Both the position numbers and the translations under genes were made by a program. The notes under the pieces were generated by a model. The model had not been told where the DNA came from. It saw only the letters and a program-made list of their open reading frames with translations, and did not search any database. A DNA stretch of 64,000 bases from Porphyromonas circumdentaria (GTDB lineage: Bacteria > Bacteroidota > Bacteroidia > Bacteroidales > Porphyromonadaceae): the NCBI RefSeq assembly GCF_900167105.1, contig NZ_FUXE01000004.1:70051-134050 (forward strand). The letters are read 5' to 3'. Below, piece by piece: positions 1-46,489 of the stretch. Position 1 is the first letter of the stretch. Every line of letters starts with the position of its first letter.

Positions 1-90
1 ACGGTAAATGATACACTTGATGCGACAGTTGCGACAGTCAATGACACGGTAAATGATACAGTTGATGCGACAGTTATTAAAAGCATATAA
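1..90 (+). CDS. C-terminal end of a repeat-containing protein (partial)
   Basis: Frame 1 is open from the window edge to a TAA at 88-90 and encodes a 29-residue tail built of T-V-N-D-T and D-A-T-V units. The DNA repeats too: the start of the unit recurs 45 bases on (position 1 and position 46), so each full unit is about 15 residues. The tail looks like a low-complexity or coiled C-terminus. It ends 5 bases before the next start, so the two genes are probably co-transcribed. The protein cannot be identified from this fragment. Confidence 0.55.
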   Translation, partial: TVNDTLDATVATVNDTVNDTVDATVIKSI

Positions 91-95
91 AGGCT

Positions 96-548
96 ATGGA
101 CTACGATAGTTGCTACACCCCCCAATGCCCTAAGCGAGAAGCTTGCACCCTATGGCACAACGCTCTGCAAAGCCTCCAAGAGGGGGCTACCCAACTCAAT
201 ATCACCAACCCCAAGCTCATCGAAGAGGCTGGTGGCTATGAGTATTGTCCGCTCCATCAAGAGCACAAACTCAGAAGTTTTGCCCGTGCCTTAGTTTGGA
301 CTTATCGGGAGATGACCCTTGACCAATTAGAGCGTGTTCATGCTGCTCTCATCAGTCACTTTGGGTATAGCAAGGTGGTGCGTATGCGCTGTGGTTACGA
401 AGCGATTAGTCCAGAGGAGCAAGCCACCATTACGGGTATCTTTGAAACAGTGGCTCCTGGCAATAAACCTCAATACAAGGGGTTCGAAGAGCATTATACC
501 AAGCCTCGGAGAGTAGAGGGTAAAGCAGCGCATAAACTACTCAAATAG
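96..548 (+). CDS. Small cysteine-containing protein of unknown function (possibly DUF6078-like)
   Basis: This 150-residue soluble protein has no signal peptide or membrane segment. Three cysteines cluster at its start (C6, C11, C17), and a C-P-L-H segment near residue 51 could complete a metal site. The length and the N-terminal cysteine pattern recall small Bacteroidales proteins of the DUF6078 type, but that link is from memory and weak. It follows the upstream gene by 5 bases and is followed by a palindromic repeat array and the type III restriction genes. Function unknown. Confidence 0.7.
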   Translation: MDYDSCYTPQCPKREACTLWHNALQSLQEGATQLNITNPKLIEEAGGYEYCPLHQEHKLRSFARALVWTYREMTLDQLERVHAALISHFGYSKVVRMRCGYEAISPEEQATITGIFETVAPGNKPQYKGFEEHYTKPRRVEGKAAHKLLK

Positions 549-557
549 GGAGTGAAG

Positions 558-619
558 TTTTCCATTGTTGGAAAAATGTTTTTCCCTTCTTGGAAAATAG
601 GTTTTCCTATAATGGAAAA
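558..619. repeat. Three tandem 18-bp palindromes, exact 22-bp period
   Basis: The pattern TTTTCC-N6-GGAAAA occurs at 558-575, 580-597 and 602-619. The arms are identical in all three copies, the six-base centres all differ, and the start-to-start distance is exactly 22 bp. The array lies in the 127-bp gap before the type III methyltransferase gene (start 676). Constant arms, variable centres and about two helical turns of spacing are what cooperative operator sites for a dimeric regulator look like. A repeat of mobile origin is the alternative. Confidence 0.8.
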
Positions 620-675
620 GGAACAGAAGCCTTTAGTAAAAGAATAGATGATTAGGACAACGTAGTACTTACGAT

Positions 676-2259
676 ATGAAACAAAAACTCGAACTCACGT
701 GGATAGGCAAAGGCGAAGAGGACGTCCTTGAGCCACGTATCCTTATAGAGAACCCCGAATACAGTTATGGAGACCCCAACACGGGCAACCTTCTCATACA
801 TGGCGACAATCTCCTCGCCCTCAAATCGCTCGTGGCCTCGGGCTATGCGGGCAAGGTCAAGTGCATCTACATCGACCCGCCTTACAATACTGGCTCGGCT
901 TTTGAGCATTACGATGACAATGTAGAGCACTCCATTTGGCTATCGCTGATGAAGCAACGCTTAGAACTACTCCGCGAATTGCTCTCGACCGATGGTAGCA
1001 TTTGGATAAGTATTGATGCCTACGAGTGCCACTATCTCAAAGTATTGTGTGATGAAGTCTTTGGACGCAACAACTTTGTGGACGAAATAATTTGGCAACG
1101 TTCGTATGCTCCCATCAATCTTAAGAAGACCGTATCTCGTGCGCACGATGCTATCCTCATCTATGCTCGCAACGCAGAGGGCTTCACACTGAATAAACTC
1201 CCTCGTAGTGAAGAAGCCAACAGCCGCTACAAGAATCCCGACAACGACCCAAGAGGTCCGTGGACTTCAGGACCTATACAAGTCGGTCCCCGGGTTGAAT
1301 CTAATGTTTATCCAATAGTTACACCTTCGGGAAGAGTTGTTCTTCCTCCAGAAGAATTTAGTTGGAGATACAGCGAAAGTCGCTTGCAAGAGTTAATTGA
1401 GGACAATCGGATTTATTTCGGTGAAAACGGGGACAATGTACCTCGAATAAAGCGATTCTTATCAGAGGTTAAAGAGGGGGTTGTTGCTTTGAGCTTGTGG
1501 CTTCGTACCGAAGTAGGCGATACGCAGGAAGCCAAGCGAGAAGTCAAGGCTCTTAATGCTCAAGATGTTTTTTCTACTCCCAAGCCCGAACGCTTACTGG
1601 AACGAGTACTCACCCTCGCCAGCAAAGAGGGCGACCTCGTGCTGGATAGCTTCCTCGGTAGCGGTACCACGGCAGCCGTAGCACACAAGATGGGCAGACG
1701 ATATATAGGGGTTGAGCTGGGTGACCATGCCTACACCCATTGCGTGCCACGTCTTCGGAAAGTAATCGACGGTACGGACAAGGGTGGTATTACCACTTCG
1801 GTGGGGTGGACTGGAGGCGGAGGTTACCGCTTCTGTGAGCTTGCCCCTACGCTACTCAACGAAGACGAAAACGGAGTGATGGTGATCAGTCCCGAATACA
1901 ATGCCGATATGCTTGCCGCAGCCATGGCGTTGCACGAGGGCTTTCGTTATGCCCCCGACCCCGAAGTCTTTTGGAAGCAGGGACACAGTACAGAGAAGGA
2001 TTATATCTATACCACTACACAGCATCTGACCGTGGAAACGCTGGAGTATATCGACTCGCTCCTCGCCGATGGCGAAACCTTGCTCATCTGCTGTACTTCG
2101 CACACGGCAGGTTTGGGTAGTCGCTTCCCTCGTATCTCTGTGAAGCGCATTCCCCGTATGCTCCTCGGTCGATGTGTATTTGAGCCTAAGCAAGATTATA
2201 GCCTCAATATCATAACCCTGCCCGAAGTAGAACCCCAAGACGAAGAAGACAATGAATAA
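676..2259 (+). CDS. mod: Type III restriction-modification methyltransferase subunit (Mod)
   Basis: This 527-residue protein is an adenine-N6 DNA methyltransferase of the beta class: catalytic D-P-P-Y (67-70) comes first and the SAM-binding F-L-G-S-G (326-330) comes later, with the target-recognition stretch between them (about 130-290). It is somewhat shorter than many Mod proteins. In the family, Mod methylates an asymmetric site on one strand and supplies specificity to the Mod-Res complex. The stop overlaps the start of the res gene by 8 bases, so translation is probably coupled. A palindromic array sits 57 bases upstream. No frameshift or repeat suggesting phase variation was seen inside the gene. 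Confidence 0.93.
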   Translation: MKQKLELTWIGKGEEDVLEPRILIENPEYSYGDPNTGNLLIHGDNLLALKSLVASGYAGKVKCIYIDPPYNTGSAFEHYDDNVEHSIWLSLMKQRLELLRELLSTDGSIWISIDAYECHYLKVLCDEVFGRNNFVDEIIWQRSYAPINLKKTVSRAHDAILIYARNAEGFTLNKLPRSEEANSRYKNPDNDPRGPWTSGPIQVGPRVESNVYPIVTPSGRVVLPPEEFSWRYSESRLQELIEDNRIYFGENGDNVPRIKRFLSEVKEGVVALSLWLRTEVGDTQEAKREVKALNAQDVFSTPKPERLLERVLTLASKEGDLVLDSFLGSGTTAAVAHKMGRRYIGVELGDHAYTHCVPRLRKVIDGTDKGGITTSVGWTGGGGYRFCELAPTLLNEDENGVMVISPEYNADMLAAAMALHEGFRYAPDPEVFWKQGHSTEKDYIYTTTQHLTVETLEYIDSLLADGETLLICCTSHTAGLGSRFPRISVKRIPRMLLGRCVFEPKQDYSLNIITLPEVEPQDEEDNE

Positions 2260-4993
2260 GCGAGACAAAAACGAAACACTACGACAGGTGAAAAGTCGCC
2301 TCTCGATGCGAGAGCCTTTGGGCAAATGCTTAGACGTAATAGCCAACATCACGGAACGACTTACGCTCACGAAACGTCCCAGTGACCCAGCAGAGCAAAA
2401 AGACTTCCTAAGCGACGAGTTGGCAAAAGCACGCGAAGTAGTCCCCTCGCTCAAAGGTTTCGGACGTAGTTTCCCCTCGTTTACCTGCTCCATCGCCACA
2501 GGTATTGGCAAGACACGCCTCATGGCTGCCACCATTTATTACCTACATCAAGTGCATGGTATCAAGCACTTCTTTATCCTCGCTCCCAATCTCACCCTCT
2601 ACAACAAATTGTTGCGTGATTTTGGTGATTCTGGTTATGATAAGTATGTATTCAAAGGCTTGGCGGAATATGTGACCCATCCTCCTATAGTCATTACGGG
2701 AGAAAATTATCTCACCCTTCGTCCCGATACGAGTGGGCCACAGCTTTTTGACTTTAAGAATATAGAAATTAATATCTTCAACATTGCCAAGTTTAACTCC
2801 GACAACAAGACCTCTAAGAAAGGAGGTGAGGTGTTGGCTCCACGGATGAAGCGTTTGTCGGAGTATCTCGGTACGAGCTATTATGACTACCTTGCCTCCC
2901 TGCCCGACCTTGTGGTGCTTATGGATGAGGCACATCGCTACTATGCCGATGCTTCCCGCTTGGCTATTGATGAGCTTGCCCCAGTCCTCGGGATAGAGAT
3001 GACAGCCACTCCTCTCAAAAATAATAAGCCCGTAGAAAACATCATCTATGAGTACAATCTGGCAGAAGCTCTTCAAGAGGGCTTATATGTAAAGATCCCT
3101 GCCATTGCCAAACGAGCTAACTTCCGTAGCGAAAGACTTACACCCGCCGAGGTAGAGCGTATCAAACTGGAAGATGGTCTCTCGGTGCATCAGCACACTA
3201 TGGCAAGTCTGGAGATCTATGCACGTACTTACGATAAACCTCATATAAAGCCCTTTGTGTTGGTAGCTTGCCGAGATATTGTGCATGCTCGAGAAACAGC
3301 TGAATACTTAGAAAGTGATAACTTCTACGGAGGACGATACAAGGGAAAAGTGCTACAAGTAGATAGCTCTACCAAGGGCGAAGATGACCTCGCACAGCTT
3401 TTCCTAACCATTGAGGAGACAGGGAACCCCATTGAGATTGTTGTACACGTAAATATGCTGGGCGAAGGATGGGATGTGCGCAACCTTTACACCATTATCC
3501 CCCTCCGTGCCGCGAACGCCCACACCCTCATTGAGCAAACCATCGGCAGGGGGTTACGTCTACCTTTTGGAGGTAAGCGCACGGGAGTGGACCATATCGA
3601 TAAACTTACCATCATTGCCCACGACAACTTTCAAAAGATAGTGGATGCTGCCAATGAAGAGAACAGTATCTTGCGTCGCTGTCAATATGTAGAACTGGAT
3701 GCAGAGGAGTTGGATGCCGAACCCGTAAACATCGTAACTGTCGAACCCAAAGTGAACGAATCTGTTGTGCAATATCAGGCTCAAGTCGCTACTGCCACAA
3801 CAGATCAAGAGCGAGAGAAGGCTCAGGCTCTATGCGATGCTACGGAGGCAATACAAGCGGTACTCAGTGAAGTGGCAATAGAAACGCAATCGGCATCGAT
3901 AGAGGAAATCGCAAAGAATGAAGAGAAATTGGAAGTGCTTGTGAATAGAGCCAAAGAAGCAGTGGCAAGGAAGGTTACGATTTTTACCCCTCTTATCCAA
4001 GAGGAGCTTAGCCCTGCTTTTGTGAAGGAAACCATCACTCGCTTCAAACGTAATTTGATAGAGATCCCTCGTATTAGCATCTTGCCTAAGGAGATACATT
4101 ATGGCTTGGAACACTTCGACGTCGATTTTTCCAAAGGGCAATTCGATTTTATAGAGCGCAAAGAGCGTATCGTACGCCGAGACCTTGTCGATAACAAGCA
4201 GGAACTACTGGAGGTCGTGGAGAGTGGTCGCACGCAAAATATCAAGCACAAACTATTAATGCTACTTCTTGATGAGCCAGAGATAGACTACTCAGAGATG
4301 AGAGAGGAATTGCTCTATATCCTCGGTCAAGTATTAGAGTATATACGTATCTATAGTACAGATGATGAAGTTGCTATCCGTACGATTGACCAGAATTGTC
4401 AACTCATTGCCTCTCGTCTGTACGAGCAGATACGAGAGCACTTTATTCAGGAAGTAATAAGCTATGGAGAGGCAAAAGTCCTCCCCTTTGTTCGGATCGA
4501 GCCTATTCATCTTGGAGAGCGAACTGGTTACCCTCGCAAGACGCTCTATGAGGCCTTACCTTCTTTGCATCAAATCCGCCGCTTCATCTTCCATGGCTTT
4601 ACAAAAGCTTGCCATGAATGTTATGCTTTCGACAGTGGTACAGAACGCAACTTTGCTCAGATCTTGGAGCAAGACGGCGAGGTGATCACATGGTTGCGCC
4701 CAGCAGCAACGCAGTTCAATATCCACTGGGGCAGAGAGAGTCGTCGCTATGAACCTGATTTCGTAGTGGAGACTACCGATGGTATTTACTTGGTAGAGAC
4801 GAAAGCGAACACGCAATTGAGCAATGAAGAGGTGCAAGCCAAAGCCGAAGCCGCAAGGCAATACTGCCTCTTGGCAACGGATTACACCACAAAACACGGT
4901 GGTAAACCATGGACTTATCTTCTCGTTTCACATCTCGACATAGAGCCAACGTTTAGCTTCAAGTATGTTTGCGACTTAAGTAAAGGAAATTGA
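2252..4993 (+). CDS. res: Type III restriction endonuclease subunit (Res)
   Basis: This 913-residue protein is a superfamily 2 helicase-nuclease that cuts DNA together with Mod. Visible motifs are Walker A A-T-G-I-G-K-T (82-88), D-E-A-H (225-228), a motif VI-like Q-T-I-G-R-G-L-R, and a C-terminal PD-(D/E)xK nuclease site with P-D near 835 and E-T-K near 849-851. All key residues are present, so the enzyme should be active. It overlaps mod by 8 bases and clearly forms a two-gene unit with it. A region between the helicase and nuclease parts (about 490-570) is rich in E, A and K and probably helical. Confidence 0.94.
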   Translation: MNKRDKNETLRQVKSRLSMREPLGKCLDVIANITERLTLTKRPSDPAEQKDFLSDELAKAREVVPSLKGFGRSFPSFTCSIATGIGKTRLMAATIYYLHQVHGIKHFFILAPNLTLYNKLLRDFGDSGYDKYVFKGLAEYVTHPPIVITGENYLTLRPDTSGPQLFDFKNIEINIFNIAKFNSDNKTSKKGGEVLAPRMKRLSEYLGTSYYDYLASLPDLVVLMDEAHRYYADASRLAIDELAPVLGIEMTATPLKNNKPVENIIYEYNLAEALQEGLYVKIPAIAKRANFRSERLTPAEVERIKLEDGLSVHQHTMASLEIYARTYDKPHIKPFVLVACRDIVHARETAEYLESDNFYGGRYKGKVLQVDSSTKGEDDLAQLFLTIEETGNPIEIVVHVNMLGEGWDVRNLYTIIPLRAANAHTLIEQTIGRGLRLPFGGKRTGVDHIDKLTIIAHDNFQKIVDAANEENSILRRCQYVELDAEELDAEPVNIVTVEPKVNESVVQYQAQVATATTDQEREKAQALCDATEAIQAVLSEVAIETQSASIEEIAKNEEKLEVLVNRAKEAVARKVTIFTPLIQEELSPAFVKETITRFKRNLIEIPRISILPKEIHYGLEHFDVDFSKGQFDFIERKERIVRRDLVDNKQELLEVVESGRTQNIKHKLLMLLLDEPEIDYSEMREELLYILGQVLEYIRIYSTDDEVAIRTIDQNCQLIASRLYEQIREHFIQEVISYGEAKVLPFVRIEPIHLGERTGYPRKTLYEALPSLHQIRRFIFHGFTKACHECYAFDSGTERNFAQILEQDGEVITWLRPAATQFNIHWGRESRRYEPDFVVETTDGIYLVETKANTQLSNEEVQAKAEAARQYCLLATDYTTKHGGKPWTYLLVSHLDIEPTFSFKYVCDLSKGN

Positions 4994-8083: not shown

Positions 8084-8182
8084 AATGAGTGTTATTGGTG
8101 GGTAGAAATAGATAACTTCTGATTTTTTTATGTATGCCTTTACTCTCAAATGAAAAAGGGTCTCTATCCCAGCGTTTTATAT

Positions 8183-8305
8183 CTCCTGTGCAAACTCCAG
8201 TTTTCTCCTATGCAAACTCCAGTTATCACCTATGCAAACTTTACTTATGACCTGTCTAAACAAATGCAAGGGTCTATCTAAACGTTCAAAACCTATAATC
8301 CAAAA
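8183..8305. repeat. 22-bp tandem repeat array, core TGCAAACT (locus 1)
   Basis: The AAAC core recurs at 8192, 8214, 8236, 8258 and 8280, exactly 22 bp apart each time, with a degenerate copy (AAAA) at 8302. The first three units share CTCCTATGCAAACTCCAGTT-like sequence; later ones drift. No reading frame runs through it. The same core and period occur at 38755-38846 and 53924-54015. It lies between divergent kdsC and the cupin gene. Confidence 0.85.
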
Positions 8306-38656: not shown

Positions 38657-38750
38657 CGCCCATGGGAAGTTTTTGACCACCCATTTGCTCTTTTAGGAGG
38701 CTTCGAAATGGAAACGCAAAATGCAAGGAAGCAGCACTACATTTCCACTC

Positions 38751-38850
38751 GTGTAAACGCTCCTTTGCACGTAGGATAACGTAAGTTTGCACGGGACTAA
38801 ACTTGACTTTGCTCCTGTCAAAACTCCGCTTTTCATTAGTCTGAACGGCA
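38751..38850. repeat. 22-bp tandem repeat array, core TGCAAAC/TAAAC (locus 2)
   Basis: The AAAC core, or one-base variants of it, starts at 38755, 38777 (TAAC), 38799, 38821 and 38843 (GAAC), each 22 bp apart. Flanking bases such as CTCCTGTCAAAACTCCG resemble the arrays at 8183 and 53924. The array lies about 65 bp before the promoter of the HEPN/SecB-like operon. Confidence 0.75.
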
Positions 38851-45436: not shown

Positions 45437-46489
45437 ATGAGCAATTTAGAAAATCAACCCGAGGAAGAGAAGAATATAAATCTCAACAAGGTAGAGGAGT
45501 ATTTTCAGTGGGCGATTGAAGCCGACCCTAAGGATGCCGATACTCTTGGCAACTATGCTGTTTTCTTGGACGATATTGTCGAAGATCATGATAGAGCAGA
45601 AGAGTACTATCAGCGCGCGATCGAAGTCGATCCTCAATATGCTAATGCTCTTTACAACTATGCTCTTTTCTTGCAGGATGTACGAAAAGATTACGATAGG
45701 GCAGAGGAGTGCTATCAGCGCGCGATCGAAGTCGATCCTCAATATGCTAATGCTCTTGGTATGTATGCTCTTTTCTTGCAGGATGTACGAAAAGATTACG
45801 ATAAGGCAGAGGGGTACTACAAGTGGGCGATCGAAGTCGATCCTCAATATGCTAATGCTCTTTACAACTATGCTCTTTTCTTGCAGTATGTCCGAGAAGA
45901 TTACGATAGGGCAGAAGAGTACTATCAGCGCGCGATTGAAGTTGAACCGAAGGATGCCAATGCTCTTGGCATCTATGCTCTTTTCTTGCAGAATTTCCGA
46001 GAAGATTATGATAGGGCAGAGGAGTACTACAAGCGAGCAATCGAAGCCAACCCGAAGGATGTCAAGGCTCTTAGCAACTATGCTGTTTTCTTGGACGATA
46101 TTGTCGAAGACCATGATAGAGCAGAAGAGTACTTCCTGCGAGCGATTGAAGTTGACCCGAAGGCTACCAATGCTCTTGGCAACTATGCTGTTTTCTTGCA
46201 GCATGTTCGAAAAGATTATGAAAAGGCAGAAGAGTACTACAAGCGGGCTCTTGAAGCCGACCCTAAGCACGCCAATAATCTGGGCAACTATGCTGTTTTC
46301 TTGGAAGAGGTTCTTGAAGACTATGATGGGGCAGAGACGTATTATCTAAAAGCTCTTGAGATAGCACCTAATCATCCAGATTTTCTTTATAGCTATGCCC
46401 TATTCCTCGAAGATGTTCGCAAGGATGAGGAGCAGGCTAATGAGTATTTCGAACGAGCCGAGGAGGCGGAGCAATCGGAAGGCGTATAG
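45437..46489 (+). CDS. Tetratricopeptide-repeat protein
   Basis: This 350-residue protein is nine tandem TPR units of exactly 35 residues (about 20-340), each like A-L-x-N-Y-A-L-F-L-Q-D-V-R-K-D-Y-D-R-A-E-E. It is acidic and has no signal peptide, so it is a cytoplasmic scaffold for protein contacts. The DNA is also repetitive (105-bp units, some nearly identical, for example 45620-45720 and 45725-45825), so the copy number may change by recombination. No partner is evident from the flanks. Confidence 0.9.
   Translation: MSNLENQPEEEKNINLNKVEEYFQWAIEADPKDADTLGNYAVFLDDIVEDHDRAEEYYQRAIEVDPQYANALYNYALFLQDVRKDYDRAEECYQRAIEVDPQYANALGMYALFLQDVRKDYDKAEGYYKWAIEVDPQYANALYNYALFLQYVREDYDRAEEYYQRAIEVEPKDANALGIYALFLQNFREDYDRAEEYYKRAIEANPKDVKALSNYAVFLDDIVEDHDRAEEYFLRAIEVDPKATNALGNYAVFLQHVRKDYEKAEEYYKRALEADPKHANNLGNYAVFLEEVLEDYDGAETYYLKALEIAPNHPDFLYSYALFLEDVRKDEEQANEYFERAEEAEQSEGV

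Follow-up and report, generated by a model that had tools for sequence, protein, structure and literature searches.

Dispersed arrays of palindromes with a 22-bp period in Porphyromonas circumdentaria and other Bacteroidales, a probable set of duplex sites for a dimeric protein

The window analyzed here is a 64,000-nt stretch of the Porphyromonas circumdentaria genome (assembly GCF_900167105.1, contig NZ_FUXE01000004.1, positions 70,051 to 134,050), in which three palindromes of the form TTTTCC-N6-GGAAAA lie ahead of the genes of a type III restriction-modification system. In the reading we favor, this triplet belongs, with its three units, to a dispersed intergenic array class found in Porphyromonas-type genomes and scattered other Bacteroidales, and such arrays are probably rows of symmetric sites read in duplex DNA by a candidate dimeric protein. 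The class itself was observed directly, as were its 22-bp period, its two-fold symmetry, the near-independence of the two arms of a unit within the P. circumdentaria genome, its dispersal, and its turnover.

Direct reading confirmed the units described in the first-pass annotation of the window, TTTTCC ATTGTT GGAAAA (558–575), TTTTCC CTTCTT GGAAAA (580–597), and TTTTCC TATAAT GGAAAA (602–619), none of which is assigned a strand. The arms are identical, the centers all differ, and the linkers are ATGT and TAGG. The claimed exact period also stands: unit starts are 22 bp apart, and doubles or triples at this period appeared in none of 200 first-order Markov simulations of the window. When at most one mismatch is allowed, the window has no match to TTTTCC-N6-GGAAAA other than these three, against 0.32 expected, and one of 100 shuffles reached three. 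The triplet occupies the 127-bp gap between two genes. It starts 9 nt past the stop codon of a gene encoding a 150-aa DUF6078 protein (96–548, forward strand; PF19555, Pfam E-value 3.5e-15), whose 3' end it adjoins and whose best relatives are in genomes G005, G001, G023, G025, and G029, and it ends 56 nt ahead of the ATG at 676 of its downstream neighbor. The naming of the downstream genes as mod-res was borne out by the Pfam matches to the mod DNA methylase of the type III system (676–2259, forward strand; PF01555, E-value 1.4e-48) and the res subunit (2252–4993, forward strand; PF04851, E-value 1.9e-19). None of 62 plasmid records covered 80% of the query, and among the matches listed, all were within the methylase. 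Elsewhere in the window, positions 1–75, ahead of the DUF6078 gene, hold the imperfect direct repeats ACGGTAAATGATACA..GTTGATGCGACAGTT with spacings of 33 and 12 nt, and positions 45493–46335 hold a 105-bp unit repeated eight times in tandem, its length being a multiple of three and perhaps indicating a repeat protein.

A search of the P. circumdentaria genome with the exact-arm pattern returned three forward matches, all from the window triplet, and four matches for a backwards control pattern. Because most arrays in this genome have GTTTNC arms, such a search would miss the class, and the impression of a single-copy feature that it gives is misleading. The genome search proposed in the first-pass annotation thus recovered the window sites alone when exact arms were used, and a class of 22-bp arrays with other arms when a covariance model (R2, described below) was used.

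The exact site is present at least once in 15 of the 38 family genomes. Its surroundings were examined for 35 of 47 forward seeds, picked partly after 44-bp spacings had been seen, so that array-rich genomes are over-represented in the neighbor counts. Across the 29 loci around these 35 sites, most sites are accompanied on one or both sides by further palindromes at a distance of 22 bp, with arms that are often different but self-complementary; a lone site without an array was found in five loci (L052, L056, L058, L060, and L064). In this seed set, neighbors with at least five of six arm pairs filled 34 of the 70 positions at ±22 bp, or 29 of 64 distinct sequences, window units included, compared with zero or one at the unrelated offsets tried between 14 and 40 bp. 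The harmonics at 33, 44, and 66 bp gave 24, 24, and 12 neighbors, respectively. Palindromes 23 bp away were found at none of 69 positions, and period-23 arrays were absent from scans that were blind to arm sequence. In 400-kb samples taken at even spacing, those arm-blind scans had their peak at 22 bp for G005 (five arrays, one with quite other arms) and G025 (eight arrays), and in stretches chosen around known matches they found 31 arrays of period 22 in G025 and 26 in G023; periods of 33, 44, and 55 bp came next. The same scan of 333 kb of P. circumdentaria sequence, window included, gave two arrays at period 22, one with other arms, and no clear peak. The arm types were TTTTCC in the window, GTTTNC in most other arrays of this genome, TTTCC types in G005, and both TTTTCC and AGTTCC types in G023 and G025. 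We also noted 22-bp arrays with quite different arms at L097:15019–15102 (AAATAG/CTATTT, four units) and L152:10930–10991 (AAAAGC/GCTTTT, three units).

Copy number was assessed with two covariance models, R1, built from 42 unit triples in the ungapped alignment A1, and R2, built from P. circumdentaria arrays in the 12-row alignment A3. Both contain the window triplet, so the triplet's own match is by construction. The counts are lower bounds, with at most 141 candidates scored per genome in the family, 150 in the single-genome search, and 18 in the order and phylum searches. In P. circumdentaria, where 150 of 949 candidates were scored, R2 gave at least 82 matches in at least 41 places at an E-value of 0.1 or below and at least 40 places at 0.01 or below, 30 of the latter 40 being outside the training set. 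Among these best 150 of 949 candidates, 71 of the 82 matches are exactly 62 nt long, that is, without a net indel. Three of the places are inside the window, at 558, 8178, and 38741. The second array (8178–8261, no strand assigned), with units at 8178, 8200, 8222, and 8244 (for example, GTTTTC TCCTAT GCAAAC), is partly decayed; a tandem repeat finder reported it at period 22, and its R2 E-value of 7.7e-8 is that of a member of the R2 training set. The third (38741–38846, no strand assigned) is decayed, is situated between divergent ORFs, and matched R2 with an E-value of 0.0034 from outside the training set. Both have the GTTTNC form that prevails in this genome, or one close to it.

Within the family, R1 matched at least 20 of the 38 genomes, and the number of matches per genome on both strands ranged from 0 to at least 146, with at least 88 to at least 146 in G001, G021, G023, G024, and G025. 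Under stricter filters, at least 13 of 295 genomes of the order had a match, nine of them outside the family, and six of these nine read as three or more units in register, in a reading that was taken at the wrong place for L159, L178, and L185, where the match is near a contig end. A phylum sample searched under stricter filters yielded at least three of 296 genomes, P. circumdentaria included. When a double site was sought in a genome collection, it was found in 14 stretches, and every title named a Bacteroidales taxon, Mediterranea being a member of that order. In the single-contig genome G001, we grouped at least 92 R1 matches into at least 34 places. A role in marking chromosomal domains was considered for these 34 places and set aside as not convincing (Kuiper test, p = 0.11; 9 versus 25 in the two contig halves, p = 0.009).

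The anatomy of the unit was examined in 170 P. circumdentaria units from 40 readable places; one further place, C11:69305, had no readable unit. The information profile of these units, with the window triplet left out, is two-fold symmetric. It reaches 1.2–1.6 bits at positions 1–3 (GTT) and 16–18 (AAC) and 0.8–1.0 bit at T19, A22, C6, and G13 as well as at positions 7, 8, 11, and 12, and it is below 0.5 bit at positions 4, 5, 9, 10, 14, 15, 20, and 21. At arm positions 1–3 and 16–18, one base is kept in 81–95% of the units, which were picked by arm score, a choice that carries a mild bias against correlation. The left and right halves have similar base frequencies. Agreement between the two halves of a unit was what chance predicts at positions 1, 2, 3, 4, and 6 (68 versus 68%, 84 versus 84%, 87 versus 88%, 46 versus 45%, and 53 versus 55%, observed versus chance) and was below it at position 5 (16 versus 28%). 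Among 141 of these units, without the window triplet, none had identical halves, against 4.0 expected. Complementarity in this set was close to that expected under independence for pairs 4–15 (69 versus 66.5) and 6–13 (72 versus 76.5), and it was depleted for pairs 5–14, 7–12, and 9–10 (p = 0.0002, 0.003, and <0.0001, respectively), a depletion that may come simply from a unit that is asymmetric and occurs in both orientations. No arm pair was among the 20 strongest mutual-information pairs in this set; these comprised two pairs of center partners (9–10 and 7–12, the complementarity of which is depleted), the linker pair 20–21, and otherwise positions one to three apart. Among 39 runs of good half-sites, the first is a left half in 28 and the last is a right half in 26, which makes the palindrome across the center the favored unit. 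In the A3 alignment, whose 12 rows include the deviant window triplet, both sides had changed in nine pairs, against 4.2 after shuffling (none of 500 shuffles as high), and the covariation score was 0.156 against 0.099 after shuffling (9 of 500); a slide of -3 columns, however, gave 11 pairs changed on both sides.

A different picture was obtained from the relatives, in a sample that was chosen by arm pairing and comprises 65 arrays (60 of them in G023 or G025) with 320 units. The level of pairing in this sample and in A1 is therefore partly by construction, and with that proviso pairs 2–6 were complementary in 91–99% of the 320 units, the center being non-complementary (pair 8, only 15%). The arms were identical in 153 of the 320 units of this G023/G025-dominated sample, compared with 75 expected, and A1 held 68 double-change cells against 23.7 after shuffling, a value reached in none of 500 shuffles. 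Descent of sub-families such as TTTTCC and AGTTCC may explain the joint arm change in the relatives and in A3, in the latter together with the deviant window row; structure or a copying mechanism would explain it too. G·T and A·C mismatches in the relatives were about equally frequent, at 31:29 in the direction of the element, 18:16 in the direction of the genes, and 13:12 within pairs 2–6.

Arrays of the relatives sample are oriented elements, as indicated by a fixed center type, C[CT]TNTT, in the terminal (first) unit of 26 of the 65 arrays and by a conserved upstream segment ending in TACGAGTTCCAA, which was matched 37 times in 60 G025/G023 stretches, nearly always just ahead of C[CT]TNTT-type units. 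Of the 18 orientable elements between tandem genes in this sample, 15 run in the same direction as the genes (p = 0.0075). Many arrays of G025 and G023 (L115–L134 and L204–L243) are headed by a conserved inverted repeat, TCGTATCGTGCTG ... TAGCACATACGAGTTCCAA. The 5' arm of this repeat seems to differ from the array arms in that T·G replacements outnumber A·C ones, by eye about 9 to 1 among 37 copies for which the search had prescribed the 3' arm. In G005, four of five array places sampled (L097, L104, L109, and L105) are flanked by the same dispersed GTGTGTCAGGC... sequence, three of them also by GAGTGCCCCTTTGAGACATC on the other side, so the arrays there ride in a larger repeated element.

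Turnover was followed in seven orthologous gaps of G025 and G023, recognized by their flanks, which are mostly about 80–95% identical; six of the gaps were aligned. In one (L208/L237), seven of eight G023 arms are of the AGTTCC type where G025 has the TTTTCC type and one extra unit. The array is missing from one species, with other sequence in its place, in two gaps (L229/L116 and L217/L225), units were gained or lost in two others (L205/L235 and L212/L238), and in L221/L242 the register is common to both species and the centers are strongly changed. Arrays thus change by whole units, and they seem to be exchanged as intergenic modules. These results divide the proposal, made in the first-pass annotation, that the triplet represents selected binding sites on one helix face rather than a duplicated repeat. 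Constant arms, differing centers, the 22-bp spacing, and P. circumdentaria halves that follow one logo all agree with the former part. The exclusion of a duplicated repeat does not hold, as the class is tandem, dispersed over at least 40 places in this genome, and fast-changing, with presence or absence and whole-unit changes at orthologous sites of G025 and G023.

Next to the DUF6078 gene, arrays recur in other genomes. G005 has a two-unit array 11 nt past its DUF6078 relative, with the mod homolog 20 kb away. One insertion sequence (IS) copy adjoins this array and an inverted copy adjoins mod. The flanks on both sides can be aligned to the one gap that separates DUF6078 from mod in the window. 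The two copies (L086 from 2026; L035 about 2038–3120) are 99.6% identical over 1084 bp, have ACGTCAGTTCGA ends, and enclose a segment of about 20 kb. As both flanks align to one gap and the IS copies are inverted, the order DUF6078-array-mod was probably ancestral to P. circumdentaria and G005 and was split by an IS insertion plus inversion. The distant mod of G005 would therefore be wrongly taken as disproof of a link between array and mod. In G029, which belongs to another genus, a five-unit GTTTCC array follows DUF6078 (matched in two frames) with no mod beside it, and in G001 and G025 an array lies about 310–430 nt downstream of DUF6078; none was found downstream of DUF6078 in G023. No mod homolog was found near DUF6078 in G029, G001, or G025, and array and DUF6078 accordingly co-occur more broadly than array and mod.

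The wider gene context was classified from ORFs called by length only, a crude procedure in which the ORFs of about 90–130 aa that overlap arrays are probably spurious. Of 40 arrays in P. circumdentaria, 23 are between tandem genes, 12 between divergent genes, and none between convergent genes, with two overlapping an ORF and three at a contig edge. The count of zero among the 35 classified arrays differs from the 21 convergent gaps among 114 of at least 80 bp (p = 0.004). The 65 arrays of the relatives sample comprised 27 tandem, 21 convergent, 11 divergent, four ORF-overlapping, and two edge cases, and because the two samples disagree, no firm conclusion on gene context can be drawn. Scattered copies unrelated to gene starts, which the first-pass annotation had named as the sign of a mobile repeat, were largely what we found, at 40 or more places, yet none of the 35 classified arrays in this genome is between convergent genes. 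Thirty genes starting beside P. circumdentaria arrays, chosen by us among the flanking ORFs, were scanned with Pfam, mod being scanned separately. A family was assigned to 28 of the 30, with mixed functions that include tRNA synthetases, GidA/MnmG, UvrD helicase, exonuclease VII, AICARFT/IMPCHase, a pterin-binding enzyme, ribonucleotide reductase, NusB, RuvC, polyA polymerase, asparaginase, redoxins, and others. Restriction families were absent from the 30 scanned genes.

In the account we favor, each array consists of 18-bp sites with two-fold symmetry set one after another, each made up of a half-site arm, a 6-bp variable center, and the inverted arm, and 4-bp linkers join the sites so that they recur every 22 bp, about two helical turns. 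The arm sequence drifts between species with the geometry kept. Most likely, a putative dimeric protein reads these sites in duplex DNA and binds neighboring units side by side. Candidates for the binder are a nucleoid-associated protein, a broad regulator, or a recombinase that spreads the arrays; the protein may serve the host or spread the arrays, and both it and the effect of its binding are inferred. Symmetric sites on nearly one helix face, which allow cooperative binding, are also a feature of the tandem operators used by dimeric regulators or ParR-like partition proteins. Judged from sequence, the two-fold symmetric half-sites and fixed spacing of the 22-bp class resemble such regulator operator arrays, and its roughly 40 loci in this genome, species-specific arms, and mobile behavior are unlike them.

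Sites in duplex DNA are preferred over hairpins because the arms in P. circumdentaria vary about independently and G·T and A·C mismatches are equally frequent in the relatives; a hairpin predicts excess pairing, and a dimer on two half-sites predicts roughly the pattern observed in this genome. That each unit is an RNA stem-loop in a 3' UTR, acting as a terminator or stabilizer, is accordingly improbable. The start of the window array 9 nt past a stop codon, the 15 of 18 orientable tandem cases in which the element points with the genes, and the covarying arms of the G023/G025-dominated sample would fit transcribed hairpins. They are set against G·U pairs that are in no excess over A·C in either the element or the gene frame, arm pairs in P. 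circumdentaria that are about independent and in part depleted of complementarity, and the location of 12 of 40 arrays in this genome between divergent genes and none between convergent ones. Rfam, moreover, gave no match in window positions 1–3000 up to an E-value of 1 and tRNA only in four array-bearing loci. Slimmer still is the chance of a private operator, in which a dimeric regulator on the three sites controls mod-res. The array does end 56 nt ahead of the mod start, its intergenic region, already with an array, probably preceded mod in the ancestor shared with G005, and its symmetry is of the binding-site type. Arrays nevertheless occupy at least 40 places in the genome, beside genes for tRNA charging and modification, DNA repair, purine and deoxynucleotide synthesis, and others, and those downstream of DUF6078 in G029, G001, and G025 are without a nearby mod. 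By eye, no clear promoter of the Bacteroidetes consensus was seen in 558–676. The earlier idea that type III restriction is under a dimeric regulator is therefore unsupported; the geometry is site-like, the array is not specific to mod-res, and the type III switch is unproven. As the array is directly upstream of mod, an effect on mod may nonetheless occur.

The alternative to which we give most weight, as a possible though not the favored one, is a selfish or neutral dispersed repeat of the BIME or NIME kind, spread and amplified by recombination or an unknown transposase, its symmetry a copying relic with no host function. Its patchy and uneven abundance agrees with this, from 0 to at least 146 matches within the family and at least 13 of 295 genomes in the order, as do the fixed C[CT]TNTT first-unit center in 26 of 65 arrays with the TACGAGTTCCAA segment (37 matches in 60 stretches) and the presence or absence, whole-unit changes, and arm replacement at orthologous sites. 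Against a mere relic, in units picked by arm score, positions 1–3 and 16–18 keep one base in 81–95% while positions 4, 5, 9, 10, 14, and 15 stay below 0.5 bit, and 71 of 82 R2 matches are without a net indel. The absence of convergent contexts among 35 arrays in P. circumdentaria (p = 0.004) also speaks against it, though 21 of 65 arrays in the relatives sample are convergent.

Several known repeats invite comparison. The dRS3 element, ATTCCC(N8)GGGAAT, occurs almost 700 times in a meningococcal genome, concentrated in intergenic repeat arrays (PMC3898611). The 22-bp class resembles NIME/dRS3 in its intergenic arrays and short palindromes with fixed arms and variable centers, and it differs in its N6 centers, other arms, 22-bp tandem period, and phylum; dRS3 is a known integration target of a filamentous phage. 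BrickBuilt, a minisatellite MITE of P. gingivalis and P. gulae, has a 23-nt unit, a leader and tail, and IS5-type ends (PMC4596501). It shares with our class the intergenic tandem arrangement, a similar unit size, and the genus, but its period is 23 and not 22, and the two are set apart here by the description of BrickBuilt given in that source. The same paper mentions 22-nt tandem repeats noted earlier in P. gingivalis W83. REP and BIME elements are likewise dispersed, high-copy extragenic palindromes, which occur alone, in pairs, or in clusters and in more than one orientation (PMC3733652), and they lack the 22-bp tandem period. We found by eye no regular GTAG/CGTC tag beside the listed palindromes, with a single GTAG linker in L080. 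A RAYT-type Y1_Tnp domain was detected in 7 of 38 family genomes at an E-value of 0.001 or below; it is absent from G000, G005, G021, G024, and G025, present in array-rich G001 and G023, and also present in G016 and G026, neither of which has an array by R1. RAYT was therefore rejected as the partner of the arrays, being absent from array-rich G021, G024, and G025 and present in these two genomes without R1 arrays. CRISPR arrays differ in having identical repeats, which these arrays do not, and the centers here are only 6 nt.

The titles and abstract openings consulted on such repeats describe no Bacteroidales class of 22-bp palindromes, the 22-nt repeats of W83 having been noted earlier, and in the part of PMC5771137 consulted, short repeats (3 to 31 bp) are left unannotated. 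Our impression is that intergenic repeats of Bacteroidales are little catalogued. The triplet serves as a warning that a local group of palindromes is easily misread as a private operator, and the arrays could serve as intergenic markers, as they can evolve faster than the sequence around them. Conservation of the geometry (an 18-bp two-fold site, a 22-bp period) but not of the sequence, at about 40 loci in this genome and with still more matches in some relatives, predicts a trans-acting protein, one that a single DNA bait could catch. More speculatively, the arrays might mark the binding places of a DNA-packaging or broad regulatory protein of Bacteroidales that is as yet undescribed. It would lay down rows of dimers every 22 bp in dozens of intergenic places, with a half-site that shifts between related species though the site geometry stays the same, and protein and arrays would thus co-evolve genome-wide.
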